This document shows positions 145-40,004 of a stretch of 64,000 nucleotides of DNA, one piece after another (the stretch's first letter is position 1; every line of letters begins with the position of its first letter). Below the pieces are notes generated by a model. The model saw only the letters and a list, made by a program, of their open reading frames with translations. It ran no database searches and was not told where the DNA came from. Both the position numbers and the translations under genes were made by a program. The DNA comes from Phycisphaerales bacterium (GTDB taxonomy: Bacteria; Planctomycetota; Phycisphaerae; Phycisphaerales; UBA1924): contig JALHNL010000008.1 in the NCBI GenBank assembly GCA_022843545.1, forward strand, positions 1 through 64,000, in the 5' to 3' direction.

Positions 145-1911
145 ATGAGCCAGATGTCGACCGGCAACCTGGGCCCCCAGGATTACGCAGAGATGAAGGG
201 CCGCAAGCTCGGCCGGATCCTCACTCGGCTGGGTCGCACCACGCGCGAGCGGGTTCACGAGGCCCTGGCGGTTCAGAAGACCCGCAAGGTGCCGGTGGGG
301 CAGTTGCTGGTCGAGCTGGGGTATTGCACGCAGCGCGACATCGACGAGGGGCTGGCGGCTCAGAGCGGCCTGGCGTACGTGGACCTCACCGGGTTTGACC
401 TCAGCGGCGAGCTGAAGGGGGCCCTGACGGCCCAGCAGGTGCAGGCGTACCAGGTGGTCCCGATCTCGTTTGAGCCCAACCGCAAGCGGCTGAAGATCGC
501 GATCAAGAGCCCCGACAACTTCCGCGCCGCCGACGACCTGCGGATGCTGATGGGCTTCAACGTCGAGGCGGTGGTGGCGGACGCGGCGGCGGTGGACGCG
601 CTGGTCAAGAAGCACTACTCCAAGGCCGAGTCGGTCACCGACGTGGTGAGCGAGCTGGCCAGCGACAGCAAGCTGGCGAACCTGACCAAGGGCAAGGGCG
701 GCGAGTCGATCGACCTGGACGCGGTGATGGAGGCGGCGGACGACAACCGCGTCATCAAGCTGCTGAACCTGGTGCTGCTGCAGGCCATCAAGGACCGCGC
801 CTCGGACATCCACTTTGAGCCCTTCGAGGACGAGTTCAAGATGCGCTACCGCATCGACGGCGTCCTCTACGAGATGGTCCCGCCGCCCAAGGCGCTGGGC
901 CCGGCGATCACCAGCCGCATCAAGGTCATGGCGAAGCTGGACATCGCGGAACGGCGCCTGCCGCAGGACGGGCGCATCGAACTGACGGTGGGCGGCGCGC
1001 CGGTGGACCTGCGCATCAGCGTGCTGCCGACGATGCACGGCGAGAGCGTGGTGATGCGCGTGCTGGATCGCAGCAACGTGCAGTTGTCGCTTGATCGCAT
1101 CGGGATGCGTGAGGACGACCTGACGCTGTTCCGCCGGCTGATCAACAAGCCCAACGGGGTGGTGGTGGTCACGGGCCCGACGGGCTCGGGCAAGACCACG
1201 ACGCTGTACGCCGCGCTGGCCGCGCTCAACGACATCGAGACGAAGATCCTGACGGCGGAGGACCCGGTCGAATACGACATCGACGGGCTGTGCCAGTGCC
1301 AGGTGAACGTGGAGGCGGAGAACACCTTCGCGCGGCTGCTGCGTTCGTTCCTGCGTCAGGACCCGGACGTGATCCTGGTGGGTGAGATCCGCGACCTGGA
1401 GACGGCGGAGATCGCGATCCAGGCTTCGCTGACGGGCCACTTGGTGCTCACCACGCTGCACACCAACGACGCGCCGTCGAGCGTGATCCGTCTGGTGGAC
1501 CTGGGTGTGGAGCCGTTCCTCCTGACCGCGACGATGGAAGGCGTGGTGGCGCAGCGGCTGGTCCGCACGATCTGCCCGTCGTGCAAGACGGCGTACACGC
1601 CCAAGGAAGAGGAGTTGATGGAGCTCTCGCTCACTCCGGACATGGTGGGCGGCAAGAAGTTCTTCCGCGGCAACGGGTGCGAGCGCTGCTACAAGAGCGG
1701 GTACAAGGGGCGCAGCGCGCTCTTCGAGATCATGGCGATCAACGAGGAGATGCGCGACCTGATGATGAAGAAGGCCAGCACCAACCTGATCCGTCAGGTG
1801 GCGCGGCGCAACGGCATGCGGACGCTCCGCGAGTGCGGGCTGCTGTCGATCTACGAGGGCATCACGAACATCGACGAGGTCGTCCGCGAGACCATCTCCG
1901 AAGACTCGTAA
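145..1911 (+). CDS. gspE: Type II secretion / type IV pilus assembly ATPase (GspE/PilB family)
   Basis: This is a 588-residue hexameric secretion ATPase that powers pseudopilus or pilus assembly at the cytoplasmic face of the inner membrane. An N-terminal MshE/GspE-N-like domain lies at about residues 20-170. The Walker A motif GPTGSGKT is at 344-351, Walker B DPDVILVGE at 406-414, and the His-box segment LVLTTLHTNDAPSS follows. A tetracysteine zinc site is visible as C477/C480 and C512/C515. The ATG at 145 is chosen because upstream in-frame residues are not family-like. It heads an operon with the platform protein and pseudopilins. GspE and PilB are hard to separate by sequence; the GspK-like protein downstream favours a type II secretion-like machine. 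Confidence 0.93.
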   Translation: MSQMSTGNLGPQDYAEMKGRKLGRILTRLGRTTRERVHEALAVQKTRKVPVGQLLVELGYCTQRDIDEGLAAQSGLAYVDLTGFDLSGELKGALTAQQVQAYQVVPISFEPNRKRLKIAIKSPDNFRAADDLRMLMGFNVEAVVADAAAVDALVKKHYSKAESVTDVVSELASDSKLANLTKGKGGESIDLDAVMEAADDNRVIKLLNLVLLQAIKDRASDIHFEPFEDEFKMRYRIDGVLYEMVPPPKALGPAITSRIKVMAKLDIAERRLPQDGRIELTVGGAPVDLRISVLPTMHGESVVMRVLDRSNVQLSLDRIGMREDDLTLFRRLINKPNGVVVVTGPTGSGKTTTLYAALAALNDIETKILTAEDPVEYDIDGLCQCQVNVEAENTFARLLRSFLRQDPDVILVGEIRDLETAEIAIQASLTGHLVLTTLHTNDAPSSVIRLVDLGVEPFLLTATMEGVVAQRLVRTICPSCKTAYTPKEEELMELSLTPDMVGGKKFFRGNGCERCYKSGYKGRSALFEIMAINEEMRDLMMKKASTNLIRQVARRNGMRTLRECGLLSIYEGITNIDEVVRETISEDS

Positions 1912-2019: not shown

Positions 2020-3303
2020 ATGGCGACGTTTGCCTATGAAGCGCTGAACTCCTCGGGCAAGGCTCAGAAGGGCTCGATCGAAGCCACTTCGAGCGAGGAC
2101 GCGATCAAGAAGATCAAGGAGCAGGGGTTCTTCCCCACCTCCGTCCGCGAACAGAAGGCCGCCAAGAAGCAGGGCGAGCCCGGCGCGGCGGCCGCGCCCA
2201 AGAAGAAGAAGAAGTCCGGTTTCTCCTTCGGCGGCGTATCCACCAAGCACCTGACGGTCTTCACCCGTCAGCTCTCCACGCTTCAGGACGCGGGCCTGCC
2301 TCTGCTGCGCTCGCTGCAGATCCTGGAAGAGCAGCAGAAGCCCGGCAAGCTCAAGAGCGTTCTGCTGGAAGTGTGCGAGGACGTGGAGGGCGGCATGAGC
2401 CTGTCGGAGGCGATGGCCAAGCACCCGCGCGCGTTCGACCGTCTGTACACCAAGATGGTGGCGGCGGGCGAGGTCGGCGGCGTGCTCGACATCATCCTGC
2501 AGCGTCTGGCCGACTTCATGGAGAAGGCTCAGCGGCTGAAGAGGAAGGTCGTGGGCGCGATGGTGTACCCCGTCGTCGTCATGACGGTCGCCATCGGCAT
2601 CGTGCTCTTCATCATGCTGTTCATCGTCCCGAAGTTCAAGGAGATCTTCGCCGAGTTCGGCGTGACGATGCCGGCGATCACGAGCTTCCTGATCAACAGC
2701 TCGTCGTGGCTGGCGGGCACCATGCCCGGCCAGAGCTTCCCCGGCGCGATCATCATCATCGGCCTGCCCATCCTGCTCTTCGTGGCGTGGAAGGTGGCCC
2801 GCCGGGCCGGCCCGGGGCGGGCGTTCACCGACCGCATGCTGCTGATGGTCCCGCTCATCGGCGGCCTGATCCGCAAGACGGTCATCGCGAAGTTCACCCG
2901 CACGCTGGGCACGCTGATCAACGCGGGCGTGCCGATCCTCGAGGCCATCGCCATCACCCGCGACACCTCGGGCAACGCGGTGTACGAGAAGGCCTTGAAC
3001 AAGGTCCACGACAGCATCCGCGAGGGCGAGACCTTCGCCCAGCCGCTGCGCGAGAGCAAGGTCTGCGACCCGATCGTGGTGAACATGATCGAGGTCGGCG
3101 AAGAGACGGGCGACATGGACTCGATGCTCATGAAGGTCGCGGACAACTACGACGAAGAAGTGGACGTGGCGGTGGGCTCGCTGGTCAAGCTCATCGAGCC
3201 GCTGCTGGTGCTCTTCCTGGGCGTGGTGGTGGGCGGCATCGTGATCGCGATGTTCCTCCCGCTCATCTCGATCATCGAGAAGCTGCAGTCGGGCGGTGTT
3301 TGA
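2020..3303 (+). CDS. gspF: Inner-membrane platform protein (GspF/PilC family)
   Basis: This 427-residue polytopic membrane protein is the platform that couples the ATPase to pseudopilin addition. Two T2SSF domains are visible, the first from about residue 75 (TVFTRQLSTLQDAGLPLLRSL) and the second in the C-terminal half (FTRTLGTLINAGVPILEAI). Three hydrophobic segments fit the family topology. A lysine-rich linker (KKKKK) precedes the first domain. The start at 2020 (MATFAYEAL) matches the family N-terminus and has GGGAG about 8 nt upstream; the longer open frame from 1957 adds unrelated residues. A dispersed repeat begins directly after the stop codon at 3304. Confidence 0.93.
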   Translation: MATFAYEALNSSGKAQKGSIEATSSEDAIKKIKEQGFFPTSVREQKAAKKQGEPGAAAAPKKKKKSGFSFGGVSTKHLTVFTRQLSTLQDAGLPLLRSLQILEEQQKPGKLKSVLLEVCEDVEGGMSLSEAMAKHPRAFDRLYTKMVAAGEVGGVLDIILQRLADFMEKAQRLKRKVVGAMVYPVVVMTVAIGIVLFIMLFIVPKFKEIFAEFGVTMPAITSFLINSSSWLAGTMPGQSFPGAIIIIGLPILLFVAWKVARRAGPGRAFTDRMLLMVPLIGGLIRKTVIAKFTRTLGTLINAGVPILEAIAITRDTSGNAVYEKALNKVHDSIREGETFAQPLRESKVCDPIVVNMIEVGEETGDMDSMLMKVADNYDEEVDVAVGSLVKLIEPLLVLFLGVVVGGIVIAMFLPLISIIEKLQSGGV

Positions 3304-3384: not shown

Positions 3385-4305
3385 ATGGCCAAGACGAAGG
3401 CGCATCCCGGGTTCACGCTCATCGAGGTGATGGTGGTCGTGGTGATCGCCGTGCTCCTCGCCGGGCTCACCATCGTGGCGGCGGGTTCGTTCATCCGCTC
3501 CAGCCGCTCGGCGGCCGAGCAGAACACGCTGCGGTCGATGTCGATCGGCGTCGAGCAGTTCGAGCAGCGGGTGGGCTTCGCGCCGCCGCTGGTGAACGAC
3601 GCCAGCCCGGTGAACGCTCGCGCCGCCACGGAGTTCACGATCCGTCAACTGGGCGAGACGGCGAACCAGAACGCCAACGACGAGGAAGAGCGCGTGCAGC
3701 GCTACCTGGCCTATGAGACCCAGCCCGACGAACTGCGCATGAGCCAGTTGTCGCTGCCCTACTACCTGCTGGGCGTGCTGGGCAAGGAGATCGACGGCGT
3801 GGACGGCCCGGGCATGACGATGCCGCTGATCTCGCCGCAGCCCAGCCCGTGGCGCAGCTTCTCGAAGACCGGGACGACGATCGAGCCGTTCTTCTCGCCG
3901 GGCGACGACAAGGACCGCCTGGCGCCGTCGACGCCCGATGGCCAGCCGTTCACCGGGGCCGACCCGGTCCGGCAGACGCGGATTCTGGACCGCTGGCGTT
4001 CGCCGGTGCGGTACTACCGGTGGGAGCCGCTGTTCCACACGAACTCGGGCGCGGTCTCGCCGGGGCGTACGGGCGCGCCGGGCAACGAGCCGACTCGGAA
4101 CAACGAGGTCCGTGACTACAACGCGCCGTTCGTGCTGGGCGATCCTCGTCGCACGGAGAACGCCGCGCTGCGGGTGGCCAAGTGGGCGATCATCAGCCCC
4201 GGGCCCGACCGGCAGATCGACGAGACCAACGCGTCGTCGTCGGTCAACGCGGACAACATCATGGTGATTGACGGCGGGAGCGCGATCCAGGGGGGTGGGT
4301 CATGA
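3385..4305 (+). CDS. Major-pseudopilin-like protein (GspG-like, enlarged)
   Basis: This is a 306-residue prepilin-like protein, exported and presumably processed by a prepilin peptidase that is not in this window. The N-terminus shows the classic signal: a short basic leader, cleavage site G9/F10, FTLIE with Glu at +5 (E14), then a hydrophobic helix (VMVVVVIAVLLAGLTIVA). The mature part is about twice the usual GspG length of roughly 140 residues, and the extra C-terminal domain is not recognised. GAGG lies about 5 nt before the ATG. It overlaps the next gene by ATGA, which suggests translational coupling. Position after gspE-gspF supports a GspG role, but that is inference. Confidence 0.85.
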   Translation: MAKTKAHPGFTLIEVMVVVVIAVLLAGLTIVAAGSFIRSSRSAAEQNTLRSMSIGVEQFEQRVGFAPPLVNDASPVNARAATEFTIRQLGETANQNANDEEERVQRYLAYETQPDELRMSQLSLPYYLLGVLGKEIDGVDGPGMTMPLISPQPSPWRSFSKTGTTIEPFFSPGDDKDRLAPSTPDGQPFTGADPVRQTRILDRWRSPVRYYRWEPLFHTNSGAVSPGRTGAPGNEPTRNNEVRDYNAPFVLGDPRRTENAALRVAKWAIISPGPDRQIDETNASSSVNADNIMVIDGGSAIQGGGS

Positions 4306-5480
4306 ACGTTGCAGGCTTCGGGCGATGTCATGGGTCGGGCGCGGTGCGCCGCGGCGTCTTGGGGCGTGCGTTCACGCTCATCGAGATGCTGGTCGTCATC
4401 ATCATCATCGTGCTCATCCTTTCGATCTCGATCCCCGCGTTCAGCAACATGCTGTACTCGCAGGAAGAGACCGCCGCGGAGAGCCAGCTTCAGGCCGCGG
4501 TGAGCTCGGCGCGCGACGCGGCGATCCGCGGCGGGCCCGGGCAGGACTCGGCGGCGGTGTTCACGTTCGACGCGGGCGGGCGGCTGACGGTGATCACGGC
4601 GGTGAAGGTCGGGCATGTGCACCCGCCGGTGGGCGCGGCGGGGGCTCGCGATCTGAAAGAGGAGTACGAGGTGTTCGCGCCGGTGGCGGATGCGACGCCC
4701 GTGCAGCTCCCGCAGAACTGGATGGTCCGCGGATACGCGCCGCCGGGCGCGGTGGACGAGGACTGGTACGGCCCGCGGCCCAACGGGGCTGAGGGGTACT
4801 ACTCGTCGGGCTCGCGGTCGGCGGCGGTGTGGGTGGCGCCCGAGACGGGCTTCTATGACCATTCGCAGGCGAACGACGCCAACCGCACCCGCAGCACCTT
4901 CATGCTCCGCTTCGCCGGGGGCAGCGGCACGCTGTCGGGCGCGTCGATGGAGCCGGTGCTGGTGGTGCTGCCGCGGCCCAGTTACGCGGATCGGGGCACG
5001 GGCCCGCAGTGGCTGCGTGCGGACCGCGCCGAAGACCTGGTGCAGTGGGCGCGGCGCGTGCTGACGTCTCGGCTGACCCCGGCGGCCCGCTGGGATGCGA
5101 TCGGTCGCTTCAGCACCGACGTGGCGGCCGCCAAGCCCGTGCAGACGATCGCGCTCTACGACGAGTCGCGGCTGGCGCGGGCCCTGGGCGTGAGCCTTGA
5201 CCGCGTGAGCCGGTCGCTCATGGCGGTTGACCCGCAGTTGTACAACGACGGTCGGCGTCTGAGCCCGGCCTGGGTGAGCGAGCTCTCGACGAGCGGCTAC
5301 ACCGGGCAGGTGGCCAACGCGATCAACCGGTGGATCGAGGGCTACGCGGATCTGAGCCAGACGAGCCCGGGCGGCACGCGGGCGGATTCGACCAGCGTGA
5401 AGCTCTTCGCGGTCAGTCGGCATGTGGGCTCGCTGCAGTCATTGGCGCAGCCGCGGGCCGAGGAGGTGAGCAATCCATGA
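4302..5480 (+). CDS. Prepilin-like minor pseudopilin (GspH-like position, enlarged)
   Basis: This 392-residue protein has a type IV prepilin signal: a 23-residue basic leader, then A23/F24 TLIE with E28 at +5 and a long isoleucine-rich helix (MLVVIIIIVLILSISIPAF). The residue before Phe is Ala rather than the commoner Gly, which prepilin peptidases tolerate. The SQLQAAVSSARDAAIRGG segment after the helix resembles GspH-type stalks. The rest, about 340 residues, is not recognised, and usual GspH is near 170 residues. ATGA overlaps join it to both the preceding and following genes, so these pseudopilins are probably translated as one coupled set. Confidence 0.82.
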   Translation: MNVAGFGRCHGSGAVRRGVLGRAFTLIEMLVVIIIIVLILSISIPAFSNMLYSQEETAAESQLQAAVSSARDAAIRGGPGQDSAAVFTFDAGGRLTVITAVKVGHVHPPVGAAGARDLKEEYEVFAPVADATPVQLPQNWMVRGYAPPGAVDEDWYGPRPNGAEGYYSSGSRSAAVWVAPETGFYDHSQANDANRTRSTFMLRFAGGSGTLSGASMEPVLVVLPRPSYADRGTGPQWLRADRAEDLVQWARRVLTSRLTPAARWDAIGRFSTDVAAAKPVQTIALYDESRLARALGVSLDRVSRSLMAVDPQLYNDGRRLSPAWVSELSTSGYTGQVANAINRWIEGYADLSQTSPGGTRADSTSVKLFAVSRHVGSLQSLAQPRAEEVSNP

Positions 5481-6565
5481 GGCTTCAGGGGAACGGGGAC
5501 AAGGCGATGAAGGGCGCCGCGCGGGGCTTCACGCTGGTGGAGATTCTCTTCGCGGTGCTGGTGCTGGCGATCGCGCTGCTGGGGCTTGGCGCGTTCTTTC
5601 CGACGGTGATCCGCACGCAGCAGGTCGCGCAGGACGCGACGCTGGGCGTGGTCGCCGCGCAGAGCGCCGAGGCGGTCCTGCGCGGGCGCGTGTACCGCAC
5701 GCCCACGGGGGCGCTGGGCTTTGAGGAGTATCTGGGCGTGGCGGCGCGTGCGCAGAGCAGCTTCCTGCCCGACGACTCGTCGTGGGTGCTGGGCGTGCCC
5801 GACACGGACATCGGCCCCGACGGCACCGCCGCGCTGATCATCGGCAACGATCCGATCCTGTCGCCGCGCATCAGCCTGGGTGACCGGCTGTATCCGCTGG
5901 ATGACGCGGGCGTGAGCGAGCCCAAGCTGGTGTGGGACGCGGCGTTCCGCCGGCTGGTCCCTCGGGGTACGGGGACGCTGGACGCGGCGGGTTCCGACGC
6001 GGTTCAGGTGGCCATCTTCGTGCGCCGGGTGGACCCGCGTCTGCGGGCTCCGCAGGGCGTGCCGATCTTCCGGGCGATCCAGGACGCGTCGCTGACGGCG
6101 GCGCAGCGCCGTTGGCCGGTGTCGGCCAGCCTCACCGCCGGTTCGCTGGGCGAGCCGTCTTTGGACGGTCGCGTGGCGGGTGAAGAGGGCACGAACCTGG
6201 TGTATTCGCAGATCATGCCTGTGGAGGTGGAGTTCGCGGAGTATCAGGCCGGCCCGCGCGTCGTGCGGCGCGACCTGCTGCGTTTGACCCGGGTTCAGGG
6301 CACGTTCCAGGGCATGAACCTGAAGCGGGCGTTTGAGCTCATGTCTCAGCCCGGCCAGCAGATCGTTGACAACTTCGGCAACATCTACTCGGTGCTCGGC
6401 CCCGAGCCCGAGGGGAGCGGCGTGGGCGCCAACACCGTCCGCATCTCGCCCCCGGTGCCCGAGGGCGTGCGCACCACGGTCAACGGCAACCCGGCGACGC
6501 TTTACCAGGTGCTCATGACGCCGCAGGCGCCGGCGGCGGTGCGGGTGTTCACGGTCAAGCCGTGA
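5477..6565 (+). CDS. Prepilin-like minor pseudopilin (GspI/PilV-like position)
   Basis: This 362-residue protein begins MRLQGNGDKAMKGAARG and has a G17/F18 TLVE prepilin cleavage site with E22 at +5, followed by a hydrophobic helix (ILFAVLVLAIALLGLGAFF). The FTLVEILFAV form is typical of GspI/PilV-type minor pilins. AGGAGG sits about 10 nt before the ATG at 5477, and the start overlaps the previous stop as ATGA, which decides the start over an upstream in-frame option at 5330. It is much longer than the usual 120-150 residues of GspI. The C-terminal domain is unrecognised. Confidence 0.82.
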   Translation: MRLQGNGDKAMKGAARGFTLVEILFAVLVLAIALLGLGAFFPTVIRTQQVAQDATLGVVAAQSAEAVLRGRVYRTPTGALGFEEYLGVAARAQSSFLPDDSSWVLGVPDTDIGPDGTAALIIGNDPILSPRISLGDRLYPLDDAGVSEPKLVWDAAFRRLVPRGTGTLDAAGSDAVQVAIFVRRVDPRLRAPQGVPIFRAIQDASLTAAQRRWPVSASLTAGSLGEPSLDGRVAGEEGTNLVYSQIMPVEVEFAEYQAGPRVVRRDLLRLTRVQGTFQGMNLKRAFELMSQPGQQIVDNFGNIYSVLGPEPEGSGVGANTVRISPPVPEGVRTTVNGNPATLYQVLMTPQAPAAVRVFTVKP

Positions 6566-6649
6566 TGCCGGCGTGCGAAGGGGCCTCGGGAGGGCGGGTG
6601 GACAGGTGTGGGGGAAGCGGTGGGGGGTTGCGGGAAGGGGAATGAAGAC

Positions 6650-8254
6650 ATGCACACGACACGATCCAGTCCGCGCGGGTTCACGCTGATCGAACTCATG
6701 GTTTCGATCGCGGCGATCGCCGTGCTTTCGCTGGGGCTGGCCCAGATCTTCTCGGTGGCGGGCAAGACGGTGTCGGCGGGGCGTCGCACCAGCACGCTCA
6801 CGCAGTACGCGTCGGCCCTGCAGCGGCAGTTGTCCGAAGACCTGTCGCGGATGACCCGCGACGGGTTCCTGGTGATCCGCAACGAGCAGTTGCCGTCGCC
6901 GGTGCAGGGCGCGCCGGGCGGCCCGCGGCGCACCCGCCGGGTGGACGTTTTGCAGTTCTTCGCGACCGGACAGTTCGAGAGTTCCCGTCAGGCGGTCATT
7001 CCCGGGCGCGCCGCCCGCTCGAGCGAGGCGGCGATCTTCTGGGGCCACGGCCTGCGCCGCCAGACCGGCGCGGTGGCCTCGCTGGGCGATGACAACGCGC
7101 AGGCGACGTACTTCGGCGGGGTTGGCATCAACCGCTACGCCTCATCGTGGATCCTGGCCCGCCAGGTCACGCTCCTGGCGCAGCCCTCGGAGTCGTTTGA
7201 CGACCCCACCGCGGGCGTGACCGCGACCGACCTGCCGGGCGGCAACCGCGTCGCGGACGTGGTCGACAACGACATCCAGATCGCGGGCCAGCCCGCCGCC
7301 CGCGACATCTTCCGGATTCCTCCGCCCGCGGGCGCCAACGAGGCCCGCATCGTCGCGGCCAACACCGGGCGCGACTCGACCAACCCGCGCCGCGCCAGCG
7401 GTCTGGTGGACATCGCCACCACCGATCTGGCGAGCATCCGGCGTGCGCTCATGTTCGTCGTTCCCAACGGCGGATTGTCCATCCAGTCGCCCAACGCGGG
7501 CGAGTACTTCGAGGGCCCGGGCAAGCGCGAGGACATGCAGACGTGGATGCGGCTGGCGCTCCCCAGCGATATGGACGGAGCGAGCGTCAACGATCGCCGG
7601 CGTCCGCGTGTCGAGGCTCTGCCGCCCAACGCGCTGGGCTTGGAGTGGAACGTGCCCACCGACGCGGTGGCCCGCGCCGATCAGATCGCCCTCTCCGCCA
7701 GTTCGTTCATTCCCGGGTGCACCGAGTTCATCGTCGAGTGGTCCTTCGGCGAGATCGACGCCCGCGGCCGGCTGCTGTGGCACGGCCACCCGCGCGACGT
7801 TGATCTCAACGGCGACGGCGCCATCAACACCGGGCAGGGCGACTATCAGGTCCTGCCTTACGACGCGGGATCGACGCCCAAGTTCTACGACCGCCTGCGC
7901 ACGCGCAGCGGCGGGGTGGTGCCCTTCGCGCAGTCGCCCCAGATCGTCCGCACTGATCTCATCCACGGCACGGTCTATCCGACGGATGTGACGTACTCGT
8001 ACTTCGGCCTCATCGATCCCGATCCGGCGGCGGCGGGGTATGAACTCGGGCGCTCGCCCTTCATCGACACCAACGGCAACGGCATCTACGAGCCGGAGCG
8101 GGGCGACCAGCTCGACTGGCCCGACACGGTGCCCTGGCCCTGGCCCAAGCTGCTGCGGGTCACGGTGTCGCTGGCTGATCCGTCGGACCCGACGGCCGAG
8201 CAGCGGTTCCAGTTCGTGCTTCCGGTGCCTCAGGGCGGGGCGAGCGGCGGCTGA
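6650..8254 (+). CDS. Prepilin-like minor pseudopilin (GspJ/PilW-like) with EF-hand-like loops
   Basis: This 534-residue protein has the prepilin signal G10/F11 TLIE (E15 at +5) and the helix LMVSIAAIAVLSLGLAQIF, a form common in GspJ/PilW proteins, which are usually about 200 residues. The mature region carries two aspartate-rich loops resembling dockerin or EF-hand calcium sites: D385-L-N387-G-D389-G-A-I-N, and D473-T-N475-G-N477-G-I-Y-E480. The start at 6650 is chosen because it gives a short leader; AAGGGG lies about 12 nt upstream. It lies 84 nt after the previous gene. The fold of the large C-terminal part is not recognised. Confidence 0.82.
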   Translation: MHTTRSSPRGFTLIELMVSIAAIAVLSLGLAQIFSVAGKTVSAGRRTSTLTQYASALQRQLSEDLSRMTRDGFLVIRNEQLPSPVQGAPGGPRRTRRVDVLQFFATGQFESSRQAVIPGRAARSSEAAIFWGHGLRRQTGAVASLGDDNAQATYFGGVGINRYASSWILARQVTLLAQPSESFDDPTAGVTATDLPGGNRVADVVDNDIQIAGQPAARDIFRIPPPAGANEARIVAANTGRDSTNPRRASGLVDIATTDLASIRRALMFVVPNGGLSIQSPNAGEYFEGPGKREDMQTWMRLALPSDMDGASVNDRRRPRVEALPPNALGLEWNVPTDAVARADQIALSASSFIPGCTEFIVEWSFGEIDARGRLLWHGHPRDVDLNGDGAINTGQGDYQVLPYDAGSTPKFYDRLRTRSGGVVPFAQSPQIVRTDLIHGTVYPTDVTYSYFGLIDPDPAAAGYELGRSPFIDTNGNGIYEPERGDQLDWPDTVPWPWPKLLRVTVSLADPSDPTAEQRFQFVLPVPQGGASGG

Positions 8255-8322
8255 TTGTTCGGATGGGTTTGGGGCCTCGGGGCGGCGGGTGGTGTTGAGA
8301 TCGTGAGTGAGGGGGCAAGGGG

Positions 8323-11300
8323 ATGGTCATGGTTCATGCGCAACGACAACTTCATCGCACCCACACTTACCGCGGCGGCGCGGGGCGGCGCGGCTCGGTC
8401 CTGGTGCTCGTCATCGGCGTTCTGGCGCTCATGGCCCTGATCGTGCTGGTGTACAGCACCATCGGCATCGCCGATCGGCGCGGCGCCGCCGCGCTGGTCG
8501 ACAAGACCCGCGCCGCGGAGCAGGGCTCGGCCATCGCCGACTATTTCACGCAGATCATCGGCGACGAGAAGCTCTCGCTGATCAACCAGACCGTGACGGC
8601 GGGCCCGAACGAGTTCCGCAACGTCACCATGCGCAAGGCCTGGACTCACCCGGGCCAGGACCCCAACGTGGTCAGCGTGCCCCCGCTCAACCAGCCCTGG
8701 CGCGGCTTTGAGCCCAGCGGCGGCGTGCGTTATGCCTGGGAGCCCGCGGCCCCCGGTCGGCTTGACCCGCGTCCCGGCGTCACGCCCTTCCTCTCCTCCG
8801 CCGATCGCGCGTATCTGGATGCCGGCACCACCGCGCTCAACTCGCAGTCCAGCCCCATCACCGCGTCCAATCAGTTGCAGCGCGGCGGCGGGCCGTTTGT
8901 CGAGCTCCACCGTGACCTGCTCGCCATCAGCAACTTCGCCGATGACGGTCGCGCCATCAGCAAGCTCGCCATCCGCGGCAACTTCGACGCCGAGTCGGGC
9001 TTCGGCACCGACGCCGACGGCTTCCTGCGCACCAGCGCCAACCTGTGGCTGATGGACGCGACGGGCTTCCCGGTGGTGACCGGCCCCACCTCGCCCGACA
9101 CCGCGTACAACGGCTTTCTCCCCTGGGTGCGCGACGGGTCGAACAACCCGCCCCCGATCTTCACCGACCCCAACGTCCCTTACATGTGGTTCATGAAGCA
9201 GTACGCCCTGCACCGCATGGTCGGCTCGGGGTTTGATCCGGGCGTCATCAGCGTGATCGATCAGCAGCCCGGCGGGCGGTTCCACCTCGACAACCTCTTT
9301 GCCGACGCCGACGGCGACGGCTTCTACGACTCGCGCTGGTTCGAACTCACGACCCTCCGCGGCGGCGCGCGGTCGGTGGTGCCGCAGTACGGCAAGATGC
9401 GGTGGTTCGTCGCGGCCAAGGCGCTGGACCTTTCGGGCCTGGTGAACGTGAACACCGCGCTCTCCTTCGCCCGCGAGCCCAGCACCGCCTTCCCCGCGGG
9501 CGCCACCCCCGCGGACGTGGACCTTGAGCGACTGCTCCGCCTGGCCGACGTGCGCCGCCTGTTCACCGACGCGAGCGGGCGCGAGTCGTACTTCAATTCG
9601 GACTGGTTCCCGAACCTGGACGCGGCGACCGCCCAGCCCTCCGACTACCGGGCGTACGAAGGCTCCGGTGACGGCGCGATCCCCGATGAGATCGGCGGGT
9701 CCGCGTTCGCCGCTCTGCTGGAGGCGAGGCTGACCCAGCCGCCCGTGCCGGCGCAGCGCTTCGCGCCGGGCGACGTGCCGTTCGGCAACCTGTTCCAGGT
9801 CGACAACCCGCGCGACACGCTGACGGCGCGGGTGCGGTCGGATATCTGGAACCGCTTCTCGCGCTCCCCGCGCGGCGCGGTAGCCGAGAACCCGTTCAAC
9901 GCGGGGCGCAGCGACGTCCGCAACTTCACCACGCCCTTCAGCTTCGCCGACGAAATGGAATTGCGCTCGCGCCACGGGCTGAACGATTCCAACAACCGCA
10001 GCCTGCTCGAGGTGGTCATTGACGGCCGTGCCCGCAACCAGACCCTGTGGAACCTGGGGCCCCTGCGCAGCACCCGCGGGACCGAGTATGAACTCGTGGA
10101 CTTCAACGGCGACCCGCGCGTCGAGGCTGCGGCGCACACGCTCTCCATCACCAGCGTGCGTTCGCTGCTCACCACCGTGTCGGGCACCATGCTCATCCAG
10201 CCCGACCCCACGGGCCGCACGCCCGTGGCCCAGACGGGCGTGGACGCCGCCGGGTTCCCGATCCTCACGCCGCTGCCCCTGAGCACCCGCGAGGTCCGCC
10301 CCGAGGCGTCCGCGGTGCTCGATGCGATCCTCACGGGCGCGGCGGGCGCGCCGGGCCAGCCTATCCCGGTGGATCAGTTGTTCTCGGCGTACCTCGACTC
10401 GCTCATGCCCGACGCGGGCTCGTTCGGGGCCACCCCGGTCGAAGACGTGTGGAGCCCCGAGATGGCGAACCACGTGCTCAACTATGGCGCGCGGGTCACG
10501 TCTACGGGCAATCCGCGGTCTCGCGTGGGCGGCAACAGCGCCGAGGTGGCCCTGCGCACCAGCGCCACCATGCTCACGAACCTGATCGCGGAGCGGTCGT
10601 TCGGGCTGCAGGGCGGGTCCGCCCGGCCGTACGCCAACGACGCCGACGCGATGATCATGGGGCAGGTGCTCATCAACGACGACGAGCGCAGCTTCCTGGC
10701 GACCGGCTCGGGCGGCACGACCCCGCAGACCTTCCCGGAGTGGAAGGACTCGGGCGTGGTCACGTATTCCTCGCCTTATCGCCCGTCGCTGGCGCTCTCG
10801 CTGGACGCCAACCGTCTGCCCGGGCTGACCACCAAGCGGCTGGCCGACCAGCAGGTCTCGGGCGATCTGAGCGCTCGGGGCGGGCTGGTGCTCTTCGGCG
10901 TGCGTCCGCAGCCGGTGCTCACGCAGGCCGCGTACTTCGTGATGTATACCAACGCGCCGATCATCGGCACCTCGGGCGGGCCCAACTGGCGCGACAAGGA
11001 GTGGACCGATTCGGGCGTGCCCAACGTGCCGCCCACGCCCGGGCCCGCCACCATCTTCGGCGCCGTCACCGCGGCCAACGACGACTTCGTCTTCGAGATG
11101 TTCGCCGTCCAGATCACCAACCCCTTCGACCGCGCCATCGCCCTCACCTCCACCACGCCCGACGGCAAGCCCGAGGTCGGCTCGGTCGACCCCAGCGTGA
11201 TGCGCTACTACATCGAGTTCAACGGGCGCTACTACAAGCTCGTGGACAAGGGGCCCGAGGGCGCGGAGAACAATGGCGTCGAACTGCTCCCCGGCGAGAG

Positions 11301-13629
11301 CCGCGTCTTCTACTACACCACGCTCTCCCCGCAGGAGATCGCCGACCGCATGAACGCGGTGATGCCCACCAGCGACATGTCCTCGGATCGCGTGATCGCG
11401 ATGATCGAGGGGCAGATCAAGACCCGGATCGCGGACGCGTCGCTGAATCCCTCTCACGGCGGTTCGCCCGTGCGGATCGTGCAGGTTGATCGCGCCAGCG
11501 GTGCCGAGGTGCCCGGCACGATCGATCTGTTCTTGGGTGCGTCCAACTCGCAGCAGCGCGTGGTGCGGCTGTGGCGCGTCGTTCACGACGACACCGAGGC
11601 CGGCTCCAGCAACAACGCCAATGTGCTCAACGATTACCTGGTCGATCGCCTCCGCGACCCCGTGGGCGTGGGGGTGGGGCGTGCGTCGCTCAACGTGCAG
11701 CTCCCCGCCGTCAAGACCGACATCGCGGGCACCTCGGTGCTCCCGCCCACGCCTCCCGGCTCGCAGGAGGATTACAACAACACCCGTTACTCCATCATGT
11801 TCGTGGGCTCCATCCGTCGGCCGGATGATCCCCGAGCGCCGGGCATTCCGCGCGGCGTGATGCCGGCGTACATGATCGAGGCCAAGTCCACCGCCTCGGG
11901 ATTCGACGCCCGTTCGTTCAACGTTGACGAGGGTCTGGACATCAACGGCGTGGCCATTCCCGCCGGCTCGATGGACATCTCCTGGTTCGGTCAGCACGGC
12001 GCGCGCCGGCTCGACGGCACCACCGGGCTCATCGCCAAGTTGAACGTGGACGAGTCCGCCGTCACCCCCGGGCAGGTGCCCGATCCGGTGCTGATGAAGT
12101 CGCTGGCCCGCTCGGCGAGCCAGCGGTCGGACCGCGAGATCGCGAATCGCCCGAGCGTCACCGGCGCGTCGGGGCCGATCCCGCCGGGTCTGGAGCCGTT
12201 CGAGGCCATCGCCATCCCGATGCGTGCGTTGCCGGTGCAGCGCCCGCTGACCCCTATGGAGATGCTCGGCACGCTGGCGGTCAGCGCGTCGCTGGACCCG
12301 TACCTCATGCCCGCGTCGGCCCCGGCCTCCGAGGCCAATCTCGACAGCGCGTGGACCACGCTGGGCGAGGCCCTCGCGCTGGGCAGCGGCTACAGCACGT
12401 CCGTCACGCCCGCCGGCACGCCCGAGTCGTACTACTTCGCCTTCGGCCACCCGGTGGACGGCGTCGTCTCCGGCGGACAGGTCCGCCTGGACACGTTCGT
12501 GCCGTACAACGACACCAACAACTCCGGGTCCTTTGAGCAGACGACGGGCCCGGCGGGTCCCAACCGCTTTGTCGATCCGCACCGCGGCTGGGGCACGCCC
12601 TTTGCCTGGAACATCCCGAGCGGGCTGCGGTTTGGCCCGGTGGTGGCTCAGGGTTTGATCAACATCAACACCGCGCCGCTCGCGGTGCTGCGCGCGCTGC
12701 CGCTGCTCACGCCCGACTATCGCAACCTTTCCACCGCCGGCACGGTGCCGGAGTGGATGCACCCCACCAACGCGCAGATGGCGGGCCGGCCGTTCTTTGA
12801 GCCCACGGTCGACCAGTGGGACGTCGCCGCCGCCATCAAGGCGTACCGCGACAAGACTGTGGAATACACCCGCGGTCTGGCCGGGGCCGACGCTGTGGGC
12901 CCGGCCATCGACTTCTCCGATACCGCGGCCCGCGTGCCGCAGTACGCGACGCTCGAGGACTACGCCAACAACCTGACCGGCCGCCGCGCCGTCTCGGGCT
13001 TCCTGAGGGACGCCAACACCAACAGTGCCACAGGCCTGCCGCTGCGCGAGTATCCGGGCTTCATGTCGATCATGGAAGTGCTGGGCGCGCGGATCGCCCC
13101 GGGCTTCACCTACACCGGCCCCTACACCGTTGACCGTCCCAACACCGACGCCACCCGCGTCGGGCACAGCATCGACCGCCTGGGCCGCTTCGGCGAGATC
13201 TCCGGCGGGACCTTGCAGCCTTCGGAACGCGTGCTCGACGTGCGTTTGCCCAGCACGGGCAACCGCGCGGGCCTGACGCCCAACTGGGTGGAGGACCCCA
13301 ACACCGCGGCTTCCGCCGGCGCGCCCGCGGAAATCCCCGACGGGCGGGACGCGCAGCTCGCCATCGCCGCCGCGCTCATGAACACCACCACCGTCCGCAG
13401 CGACGTGTTCTGCGTGTGGTTCGTGATCGAGGGCTACACCCGCGCGGATGTGGAGGGGCTGAACTACATCGGCTCGCCCACCGGCGTGGCCGACCCCAAC
13501 GACGACAGTTACGCCACCCCGATGACTCCGTCGGTCTCCCGGCGCTACGTCATGGTGGTGGACCGCACGAACGTCACCGCGCCGGGCCAGCGCCCCAAGA
13601 TCCTGTTCCTGCAGGAAGTGCCGCGGTAA
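8323..13629 (+). CDS. Giant GspK-like minor pseudopilin
   Basis: At 1768 residues this is about five times the length of usual GspK (roughly 320). The N-terminus has a basic leader, RRGSVLVLVIGVLALMALIV, and no Glu at +5, which is characteristic of GspK, the pseudopilus tip component. The GspK-type motif NxNTA appears twice, at N375-V-N377 and N1447-I-N1449. The second is followed by PLAVLRALP, as in the helix-hairpin-helix-like region of GspK. An EF-hand-like loop D328-A-D330-G-D332-G-F-Y-D336 is also visible. The start could be 8323 or 8329; AAGGGG fits the second better. It is the last pseudopilin of the operon. Long stretches between the motifs are unrecognised. Confidence 0.85.
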   Translation: MVMVHAQRQLHRTHTYRGGAGRRGSVLVLVIGVLALMALIVLVYSTIGIADRRGAAALVDKTRAAEQGSAIADYFTQIIGDEKLSLINQTVTAGPNEFRNVTMRKAWTHPGQDPNVVSVPPLNQPWRGFEPSGGVRYAWEPAAPGRLDPRPGVTPFLSSADRAYLDAGTTALNSQSSPITASNQLQRGGGPFVELHRDLLAISNFADDGRAISKLAIRGNFDAESGFGTDADGFLRTSANLWLMDATGFPVVTGPTSPDTAYNGFLPWVRDGSNNPPPIFTDPNVPYMWFMKQYALHRMVGSGFDPGVISVIDQQPGGRFHLDNLFADADGDGFYDSRWFELTTLRGGARSVVPQYGKMRWFVAAKALDLSGLVNVNTALSFAREPSTAFPAGATPADVDLERLLRLADVRRLFTDASGRESYFNSDWFPNLDAATAQPSDYRAYEGSGDGAIPDEIGGSAFAALLEARLTQPPVPAQRFAPGDVPFGNLFQVDNPRDTLTARVRSDIWNRFSRSPRGAVAENPFNAGRSDVRNFTTPFSFADEMELRSRHGLNDSNNRSLLEVVIDGRARNQTLWNLGPLRSTRGTEYELVDFNGDPRVEAAAHTLSITSVRSLLTTVSGTMLIQPDPTGRTPVAQTGVDAAGFPILTPLPLSTREVRPEASAVLDAILTGAAGAPGQPIPVDQLFSAYLDSLMPDAGSFGATPVEDVWSPEMANHVLNYGARVTSTGNPRSRVGGNSAEVALRTSATMLTNLIAERSFGLQGGSARPYANDADAMIMGQVLINDDERSFLATGSGGTTPQTFPEWKDSGVVTYSSPYRPSLALSLDANRLPGLTTKRLADQQVSGDLSARGGLVLFGVRPQPVLTQAAYFVMYTNAPIIGTSGGPNWRDKEWTDSGVPNVPPTPGPATIFGAVTAANDDFVFEMFAVQITNPFDRAIALTSTTPDGKPEVGSVDPSVMRYYIEFNGRYYKLVDKGPEGAENNGVELLPGESRVFYYTTLSPQEIADRMNAVMPTSDMSSDRVIAMIEGQIKTRIADASLNPSHGGSPVRIVQVDRASGAEVPGTIDLFLGASNSQQRVVRLWRVVHDDTEAGSSNNANVLNDYLVDRLRDPVGVGVGRASLNVQLPAVKTDIAGTSVLPPTPPGSQEDYNNTRYSIMFVGSIRRPDDPRAPGIPRGVMPAYMIEAKSTASGFDARSFNVDEGLDINGVAIPAGSMDISWFGQHGARRLDGTTGLIAKLNVDESAVTPGQVPDPVLMKSLARSASQRSDREIANRPSVTGASGPIPPGLEPFEAIAIPMRALPVQRPLTPMEMLGTLAVSASLDPYLMPASAPASEANLDSAWTTLGEALALGSGYSTSVTPAGTPESYYFAFGHPVDGVVSGGQVRLDTFVPYNDTNNSGSFEQTTGPAGPNRFVDPHRGWGTPFAWNIPSGLRFGPVVAQGLININTAPLAVLRALPLLTPDYRNLSTAGTVPEWMHPTNAQMAGRPFFEPTVDQWDVAAAIKAYRDKTVEYTRGLAGADAVGPAIDFSDTAARVPQYATLEDYANNLTGRRAVSGFLRDANTNSATGLPLREYPGFMSIMEVLGARIAPGFTYTGPYTVDRPNTDATRVGHSIDRLGRFGEISGGTLQPSERVLDVRLPSTGNRAGLTPNWVEDPNTAASAGAPAEIPDGRDAQLAIAAALMNTTTVRSDVFCVWFVIEGYTRADVEGLNYIGSPTGVADPNDDSYATPMTPSVSRRYVMVVDRTNVTAPGQRPKILFLQEVPR

Positions 13630-39185: not shown

Positions 39186-40004
39186 ATGACACGCCCGCAC
39201 ACCGCCCGCCCCCGCGCCTTCACGCTCATCGAGCTGCTCGTCGTCATCGGCGTGATCGGGCTGATCATCTCGATCGTGCTGCCCGCGCTGGGCGGGGCCC
39301 GCGCCGCCGCCCGCGAGGCCAAGGCCCTGGCCAACCTGCGCAGCACCGGGCAGACCTTCGCGGCGTACGCCAACCAGTACAAGGCGCTCCCCTTCCGTGC
39401 CCTGGGGAGCGATGTGCCCGGCATCGCCGGCGACGGCGCGGTCAGCGGGCCGATTCCCGGCCAGTCCGGCATCATCTTCGTGCGGTGGTGGCCAAATGGC
39501 GTGCTGCTGGGCACCAGCGATGTGTGGTCCCACCAATGGATCTGGCCCGGCATCGTCTCGTCGTTCATGGACTGGCCCGAGGCCTATGCCACCTGGGTCT
39601 CGCCCGGCCGATCCACCGAGCTGCCCACCGAGCCGATCATCGACATGCAGGAGATCGCCAACACGATCTCCATCCGCTACGCCTGCCCCTTCGTCGCGTC
39701 GCCGCAGCTCTTCCGCGAGGGCGCGCCGGCGGACGAATCGCTCATCGGCCCCACGCGCCCCGAGAACGTCCGCTTCCCCGCGGGCAAGGTCATGCTCTGG
39801 GACGCCCACCTCGCCTACCTCCGCCGCCAGCCCGCGGTCGTCGGCGAGTTCTTCGACGCCCCCGCGCCCATGGCCTTCGCCGACGGGCACGCCGAGGTCC
39901 GCAATCCGACGCAGGCCGCCCCCGGCGTGACCAACCCCCTCCGCCACGTGGGCCCCTCGCCGATCAACAGCACCAAGGACGGCACGGCGGGCAAGGACTT
40001 CTGA
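39186..40004 (+). CDS. Prepilin-like protein with H-X9-DG-type C-terminus
   Basis: This 272-residue protein has a type IV prepilin signal, RAFTLIELLVVIGVIGLIISIVLPAL, with Glu at +5 after the cleavage site, and a C-terminal MAFADGHAEVRN segment. Together these mark the large planctomycete family of pilin-like proteins with N-terminal methylation motif and H-X9-DG tail (DUF1559-like). These are exported, often present in many paralogues, and functionally unknown. It follows the membrane-anchored gene by 9 nt. It may be assembled by the same machinery as the 145-13629 operon, but that is inference. Confidence 0.87.
   Translation: MTRPHTARPRAFTLIELLVVIGVIGLIISIVLPALGGARAAAREAKALANLRSTGQTFAAYANQYKALPFRALGSDVPGIAGDGAVSGPIPGQSGIIFVRWWPNGVLLGTSDVWSHQWIWPGIVSSFMDWPEAYATWVSPGRSTELPTEPIIDMQEIANTISIRYACPFVASPQLFREGAPADESLIGPTRPENVRFPAGKVMLWDAHLAYLRRQPAVVGEFFDAPAPMAFADGHAEVRNPTQAAPGVTNPLRHVGPSPINSTKDGTAGKDF

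Follow-up and report, generated by a model that had tools for sequence, protein, structure and literature searches.

The window studied here is a stretch of 64,000 nucleotides from a Phycisphaerales bacterium of the phylum Planctomycetota (contig JALHNL010000008.1, referred to below as C8, positions 1 to 64,000 of the forward strand). It opens with genes for an assembly ATPase and a platform protein, followed by five prepilin-like proteins, p1 to p5, all of which are enlarged and the last of which is a giant of 1768 aa. We consider it fairly likely that these genes make up the 3′ portion of a type IV pilus operon with the gene order PilB1–PilT–PilB2–PilC–p1–p2–p3–p4–giant, and that it encodes a tip complex that includes the giant as an adhesin or receptor. 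An earlier note on the same DNA had inferred that the five proteins build one enlarged pseudopilus, as in a type II secretion system (T2SS). The idea of one enlarged assembly is reasonable, because the enlarged G-H-I-J-K-type set is inherited together as one operon, with the same order in relatives, but assigning the set to type II secretion is probably an error, given the presence of PilT and of PilB-type ATPases. A retractile type IV pilus with the K subunit as adhesin or receptor is best supported, because PilT is found in the operon.

The operon in the window and in related genomes

The window starts at base 1 of C8, in an assembly of 149 contigs that is of metagenome-assembled genome quality. 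All the operon genes in the window lie on the forward strand. The first encodes a PilB2/GspE-type assembly ATPase (160..1911; 583 aa from the start at 160, which is uncertain, the frame being open from 16). In a single-protein scan it matches PF00437 with 465 bits and the MshEN domain PF05157 with 46.8 bits, both above the cut-off, and the PilB model TIGR02538 and GspE model TIGR02533 with 621.9 and 608.4 respectively, both below it. It is followed by a PilC/GspF platform protein (2020..3303, probable start MATFAYEAL, frame open from 1957), which matches PF00482 above the cut-off with 223.7 bits in two stretches, and for which the PilC and GspF models are approximately equal.

The five prepilin genes come next, as the earlier note had described them. 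They are p1 (G-type, 3385..4305, 306 aa, with a leader of 9 aa and FTLIE), p2 (H-type, 4302..5480, 392 aa, leader 23 aa, FTLIE), p3 (I-type, PilV/GspI, 5477..6565, 362 aa, leader 17 aa, FTLVE), p4 (J-type, 6650..8254, 534 aa, leader 10 aa, FTLIE) and p5, the giant K-type prepilin-like protein (8323..13629, 1768 aa). The leaders of p1 to p4 end in G or A, with Glu at +5, and the N_methyl domain (PF07963) is above its curated cut-off for all four in a search of the genome, p2 being just under it in the single-protein scan. The probable cleavage site of p5 is after G24, between RRG and SVLVL, without Glu at +5. The short leaders and motifs reported previously are therefore present, as are the ATGA overlaps that couple the first three genes (p1/p2 at 4302-4305, p2/p3 at 5477-5480). 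The mature lengths of p1 to p5 are approximately 297, 369, 345, 524 and 1744 aa. The full-length GspG, H, I, J and K of E. coli K-12 have 145, 169, 125, 195 and 327 aa, and the window proteins are approximately 2.1 to 5.3 times larger, which confirms the size excess that had been claimed over the classical Gsp proteins.

Family models suggest that p1 to p5 correspond in order to the G, H, I, J and K types, an assignment that rests on gene order and weak similarity. The GspG model matches p1 in 20 of 21 orthologues (best E 7.7e-10), PilV (TIGR02523) matches p3 in 21 of 21 (best 9e-10), and GspJ (TIGR01711) matches p4 in 14 of 21 (best 6.1e-6). For p2, Verru_Chthon D (TIGR02596) matches 19 of 21 orthologues (7.9e-9) and GspH 13 of 21, and other pilin models match too. 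All these matches for p1 to p4 are N-terminal and below the equivalog cut-offs.

The remaining genes of the operon, PilB1 and PilT, are found in the window genome on a separate small contig, C127, and match the genes of relatives at 1e-278 and 3e-200 respectively. On the other side of PilB1/PilT, C127 carries a DFP/CoaB-like gene (PF04127), a homologue of which flanks the operon in several relatives, and synteny suggests that C127 adjoins C8. PilT scores 442.7 bits with TIGR01420, against a cut-off of 319.1, and PilB1 contains the cyclic di-GMP motif NF053729, above the cut-off. PilT is the retraction ATPase, and is not a T2SS component. Because PilT passes its curated family cut-off, the system looks closer to a retractable type IV pilus than to a T2SS pseudopilus. 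The features of a type IVa pilus that are present are the PilB and PilC-type genes, PilT, and a G-H-I-J-K-type set with a type III signal and with Glu5 in all except K. It had been noted that no GspD or GspL/M/C gene is visible before the window start. Since the window opens at the first base of the contig, this absence is uninformative; relatives have PilB1 and PilT upstream.

The same operon was found in relatives. Twenty 20-kb stretches were sampled from the same order, and all twenty have the order PilB1–PilT–PilB2–PilC–p1–p2–p3–p4–giant, except that PilB1/PilT are absent from the stretch read at one locus (L054) and several early-branching loci have one additional pilin, placed after p1 and before p2. 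In 22 relative loci, of which two are one contig present in two collections, the mature proteins measure 252-366 aa for p1, 307-404 for p2, 318-503 for p3, 490-722 for p4 and 1289-1919 for p5. Two more giants have untrimmed open reading frames (ORFs) of 1970 and 2118 aa, and two further loci from the same order as the window (L161, L163) have giants of 1560 and 1572 aa. At 14 loci from other orders and families of the class the arrangement is the same, and PilB1/PilT are in view at most of them; the giants there are 855-1388 aa long and the pilins are smaller. The whole operon is also present at three loci in complete genomes of another planctomycete family (f32), where the giants measure 1569, 1739 and 1704 aa; pilins and a 1718-aa giant are seen at one more locus of this family. 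The earlier note had proposed looking for homologues of normal length in close relatives; none was found, and the orthologues are enlarged in every relative examined. On the sequences compared, enlargement is an inherited trait of the operon, class-wide and partly phylum-wide.

A single-sequence search detected the giant in 33 of 41 genomes, and a profile of its C-terminal part matches in 175 of the 198 genomes of the class, where the weakest matches need not all be orthologues. A scan of named contigs gave no match with the single giant protein, and five loci with an alignment-based query. No match to the giant was found in a plasmid collection. Other planctomycete prepilin clusters (L145, L147) contain a K-like protein of 1,724-1,772 aa among H/I/J-like pilins, in a different gene order.

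The giant and its likeness to GspK

On its own the giant matches no Pfam, NCBIfam or solved-structure family. The model NF037980 (T2SS_GspK) matches 6 of 21 giant orthologues, with a best E of 1.1e-4, and PF03934 has a best E of 0.22; none of the orthologues is over a curated GspK cut-off (130 bits for NF037980; PF03934). A GspK profile was made from the E. coli protein and eight phycisphaeral GspKs, and compared with the giant profile using hhalign. A 'GspK' candidate from another pseudopilin set of the window genome, on contig C47 (L113, 12806-13999), was left out of the profile as not a clear GspK.

The alignments fall on the landmarks of GspK. The leader, hydrophobic helix and following N-terminal region of p5 (residues 1-86, 8323..8580) align with the GspK N-terminus (residues 12-86, P 3.1e-4; 5.3e-6 via relatives from the class). 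A first NVNTA motif (residues 375-379, 9445..9459), in which N375 is nearly invariant, falls on the GspK NINxxT site in a weak alignment (residues 367-380, P 0.14). A second NxNTA/helix-hairpin-helix-like region is at residues 1443-1465 (GLININTAPLAVLRALPLLTPD, 12649..12717), and the GLININTAPLAVLRALPLL stretch (residues 1430-1465) aligns with the GspK helix-hairpin-helix site with P 5.6e-6, or 5.6e-7 together with the C-terminal alignment. The C-terminal TVRSDVF...RRYVMVVDRT region (residues 1684-1768, 13372..13626) is GspK C-terminus-like, with P 0.0056 alone for residues 1684-1765, and R1692, D1747 and R1748 are invariant. The N-terminus, the NINTAP helix-hairpin-helix and the C-terminus of GspK are thus colinear in the giant, which shares with GspK the lack of Glu5. 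The shorter giants from other groups of the class gave P values of 2.5e-11 (NINTAP region joined to C-terminus) and 5.3e-6 against GspK, and the giants of class relatives align over their full length with the window family at 3.4e-74. Controls consisting of forty column shuffles and one reversal of the GspK profile gave a best P of 0.28.

In the giant, approximately 1,050 residues separate the first GspK-like landmarks from the NINTAP region. The plainest reading of these alignments is that the giant is a K-type subunit in which a stretch of this length lies between the early and late landmarks. Searching solved structures by sequence gave no credible match, whether the query was the giant, its alignment, its C-terminal part or the class alignment; a calmodulin-like chain (E 0.35) and a helix-hairpin-helix chain (E 0.43) are at chance level. 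The Lamin Tail Domain matches 2 of 21 giants (best E 0.0031), with no accepted domain. Residues 328-336 (DADGDGFYD, 9304..9330) form a calcium-loop-like motif, which is strongly conserved: among 18 giants from across the phylum, D328, D330, G331 and D336 are invariant and D332 and G333 are conserved in at least 90%. The DADGDGxxD motif is a putative calcium-binding site.

Alternative explanations and points against a pilus

The operon could in principle encode a pseudopilus of type II secretion whose tip is oversized, that is, a periplasmic piston in which the giant K and the enlarged H-I-J subunits recognise very large substrates or push them through an orphan secretin. We consider this unlikely. 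The K-type protein does carry the helix-hairpin-helix landmarks typical of GspK, p4 fits GspJ and p1 fits GspG, and there are orphan GspD+GspE pairs on contigs C45 (L114) and C6 (L117), both isolated, with no platform protein or pseudopilins called nearby. However, PilT is inside the operon in both of the classes sampled, and GspC/L/M are neither in the operon nor near it. The search of the neighbourhood for GspD and GspL that the earlier note had proposed gave no GspC/D/L/M or other secretin, either within the operon or in the flanking sequence covered (approximately 20 kb in relatives), and such genes may lie elsewhere in the genome. The operon ATPases also group neither with the GspEs of the genome nor with that of E. 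coli. In a maximum-likelihood tree, PilB1 and PilB2 form separate clades (support 91/77 and 97/99 respectively), each of which spans the phylum; the window ATPase falls in the PilB2 clade, and E. coli GspE and the other GspEs of the window genome fall outside both. Lastly, the same genome has separate pseudopilin sets that are mostly of normal size: one on C25 of 145, 194 and 156 aa with a fourth member cut by the contig end, one on C24 of 156, 159, 142, 183 and 279 aa, and one on C47 of 157, 177, 347, 178 and 398 aa, in which one J-type member is long.

These mostly normal-sized sets also bear on the suggestion that the extra length is mostly neutral growth, the result of a lineage drift towards longer secreted proteins, with standard pilin cores doing their usual job. 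This fits the wide variation in giant length (frames of 855 to 2682 aa across the searches) and the poor conservation of the middle region, which has a mean column identity of 19-22%. Nevertheless, we find it quite improbable. The middle region holds invariant or near-invariant residues, such as T617, G859, P934 and D1108, and in several families all the subunits are enlarged. Giant length moreover co-varies with that of other subunits: within the order, the correlations with p4, p2, p1 and p3 are 0.58, 0.71, 0.53 and 0.00, and over 39 loci the Spearman correlation with p4 is 0.69, relatedness being uncorrected and one locus counted twice. A non-retractile envelope scaffold or surface lattice of prepilin-like subunits, with PilT serving another filament, is very doubtful. 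Secretin and alignment genes are indeed absent from the operon, and motor-less prepilin-like cassettes are known from the Planctomycetes–Verrucomicrobia–Chlamydiae (PVC) bacteria as the Verru_Chthon A-D models, which p2 to p5 weakly resemble; against this, two PilB-type ATPases, PilT and a platform protein share the operon across two classes. There is practically no chance that the giant is an artefact, created in this assembly of many contigs by chimerism, a frameshift fusion or a miscalled ORF: these origins are ruled out by the relatives checked, every one of which, single-contig genomes included, has an uninterrupted orthologue.

Several results nevertheless count against a type IV pilus with a giant tip adhesin. 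There is no secretin or PilM/N/O inside the operon, and the genome has several secretins and ATPases. The ends of C127 and C8 have no exact sequence overlap, and both PilB1 and PilB2 are below the PilB and GspE cut-offs. At two loci in a further family (f50; L176, L177), PilB1, PilB2, PilC, small pilins and a giant-like protein of 862-875 aa are present, and PilT is absent between the ATPases. For the proposed ectodomain no Pfam or solved-structure family was found, and AlphaFold2 predictions made with six sequences for residues 1-780 and 820-1768 of the giant had mean pLDDT (predicted local distance difference test) values of 31.8 and 32.4, which makes them unusable. No pilus has so far been linked to the operon.

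Proposed function and relation to known pili

In the type IV pilus that we propose, prepilin peptidase would trim all five subunits. The H, I, J and K types, p2 to p5, would make up a tip complex that initiates the filament, and the giant, lacking Glu5, would sit at the very tip. PilB1/PilB2 and PilC would extend the filament and PilT would retract it, and the shaft would be made of p1 or of another pilin encoded elsewhere in the genome. The stretch of approximately 1,050 residues would be an outward-facing ectodomain that binds a surface or a large ligand, the role played by PilY1 or by grafted modules in other pili. Tip subunits of pili set the target of adhesion. Published reviews put the H-I-J-K minor pilins at the tip of the filament, with a subunit that lacks Glu5 as the cap (PMC10191384). 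They also show that minor pilins can bind through modules grafted on to them or inserted into them, the insertions in GspK and ComZ being examples (PMC8179133).

The missing partners would probably come from other loci, namely PilM on C23, prepilin peptidase on C54 and a PilQ-like secretin on C5. The peptidase that the earlier note had suggested looking for thus exists in the window genome, but it is not linked to the operon. Because PilM, the peptidase and the secretin are all unlinked to the giant operon, we can only infer that they work with it. Elsewhere in the genome, C47 carries a PilN-like gene next to another GspE, and C45 and C6 carry GspD-like secretins. PilM followed by two single-membrane-span-type proteins forms a conserved trio in the four complete or near-complete genomes examined; this PilM exceeds the cut-off of TIGR01175 and also matches the Amuc_1101 family of Akkermansia. 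Its two partners are large proteins that each have a single N-terminal hydrophobic segment and match nothing in Pfam or NCBIfam; they were seen in two planctomycete classes (L180-L183). They are candidate PilN/O equivalents. The window genome has 55 N_methyl matches in total, and a further N-terminal methylation motif is found in the window apart from the operon (39210-39281, in a 275-aa open frame). Directly after the giant there is a gene for a DCC1-like thiol-disulfide oxidoreductase (PF04134, 13714-14202).

The closest parallels are with systems already described. Like the type IVa minor pilins PilH-I-J-K (FimU-PilV-PilW-PilX), the operon has ordered H-I-J-K types, PilB, PilT and PilC, and a last subunit without Glu5. 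It differs in that all its subunits are enlarged and that it has two PilB-type ATPases where those systems have one. The operon genes of relatives are all accounted for and include no identified PilY1, and the giant K would carry the adhesin role. GspK (NF037980, PF03934) resembles the giant in the lack of Glu5 and in having N-terminal, NxNTA helix-hairpin-helix-like and C-terminal regions in the same order, whereas the giant is five times longer, is below the family cut-offs, and occurs with PilT and without GspC/D/L/M in its operon. Modular pilins, such as S. sanguinis PilB/PilC, ComZ and CofB, also have an extra module attached or inserted, and in ComZ and GspK the insertion is inside the pilin domain (PMC8179133). 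The insertion in the giant is far larger, and Pfam recognises no known module in it; the most extreme multi-domain pilin in an InterPro survey had 860 residues (PMC8179133).

A fourth parallel is the PVC cassette described by the Verru_Chthon A-D models (TIGR02600, TIGR02598, TIGR02599, TIGR02596), which has a giant first member (a 1296-position model) and prepilin-like partners. Here 4 members of p3 match B (best 3.7e-4), one of p4 matches C (9.7e-4) and one of p5 matches A (0.059). All the matches are far below the curated cut-offs, however, and the operon set is joined to PilB/PilT/PilC. Across the phylum, matches to Verru_Chthon A are almost entirely N-terminal. In one genome, four giant ORFs of 1312-1393 aa with Verru_Chthon A-like N-termini lie close together (G065:C25, 11513-30920, partly L139). 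A literature search found no papers naming the Verru_Chthon cassette, and no description of the giant operon was found in the open-licence literature. Prepilin-like giants that share this kind of N-terminus are common across the phylum, and an uncharacterised Verrucomicrobia model exists for them, so that giant K-like proteins as such are not new to databases. Their placement in a PilB/PilT operon and the homology of the giants to GspK appear to be undescribed in the searchable literature. The PVC pilus genes of Akkermansia (PilQ Amuc_1098 and the PilM-like Amuc_1101) provide a further comparison: the planctomycete PilM is near the Amuc_1101 family, and Akkermansia PilQ has been localised to the outer membrane (PMC4960237), both of which support a PVC-type pilus machine. 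In the planctomycetes examined, by contrast, neither the PilM trio nor the secretin is linked to the giant operon.

Surface fibres have been observed in several relevant organisms. Boedeker et al. described dextran-binding pili-like fibres from crater structures in two budding planctomycetes, with the uptake system still to be characterised (PMC5394234). In cultured Phycisphaeraceae, fimbriae are present and craters are reported to be lacking (PMC8882080); in particular, motility or fimbriae/polar fibres are reported for Phycisphaera mikurensis and Mucisphaera calidilacus, with craters not observed or absent (PMC8882080). The genomes taken as these two species (L160 and L162 respectively) carry the operon, PilB1/PilT being outside the view for L160. 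These fimbriate, crater-less carriers support a fimbrial role and weaken a direct link to craters. Because operon-carrying Phycisphaeraceae are reported without craters, it is less likely that the operon encodes the crater-associated fibres of budding planctomycetes.

More tentatively, and with a good deal of doubt, the Planctomycetota may share a distinct lineage of type IV pilus in which the whole G-H-I-J-K set is enlarged and K is a giant tip receptor that replaces PilY1, forming adhesive or polysaccharide-binding fibres. If the type IV pilus proposed here is correct, a GspK-like tip subunit of 850-2,100 residues or more, with enlarged partners, would stand at the extreme of modular pilin evolution. 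The operon would also provide a defined gene set for planctomycete surface fibres, the molecular identity of which has been described as unsettled (PMC5394234).

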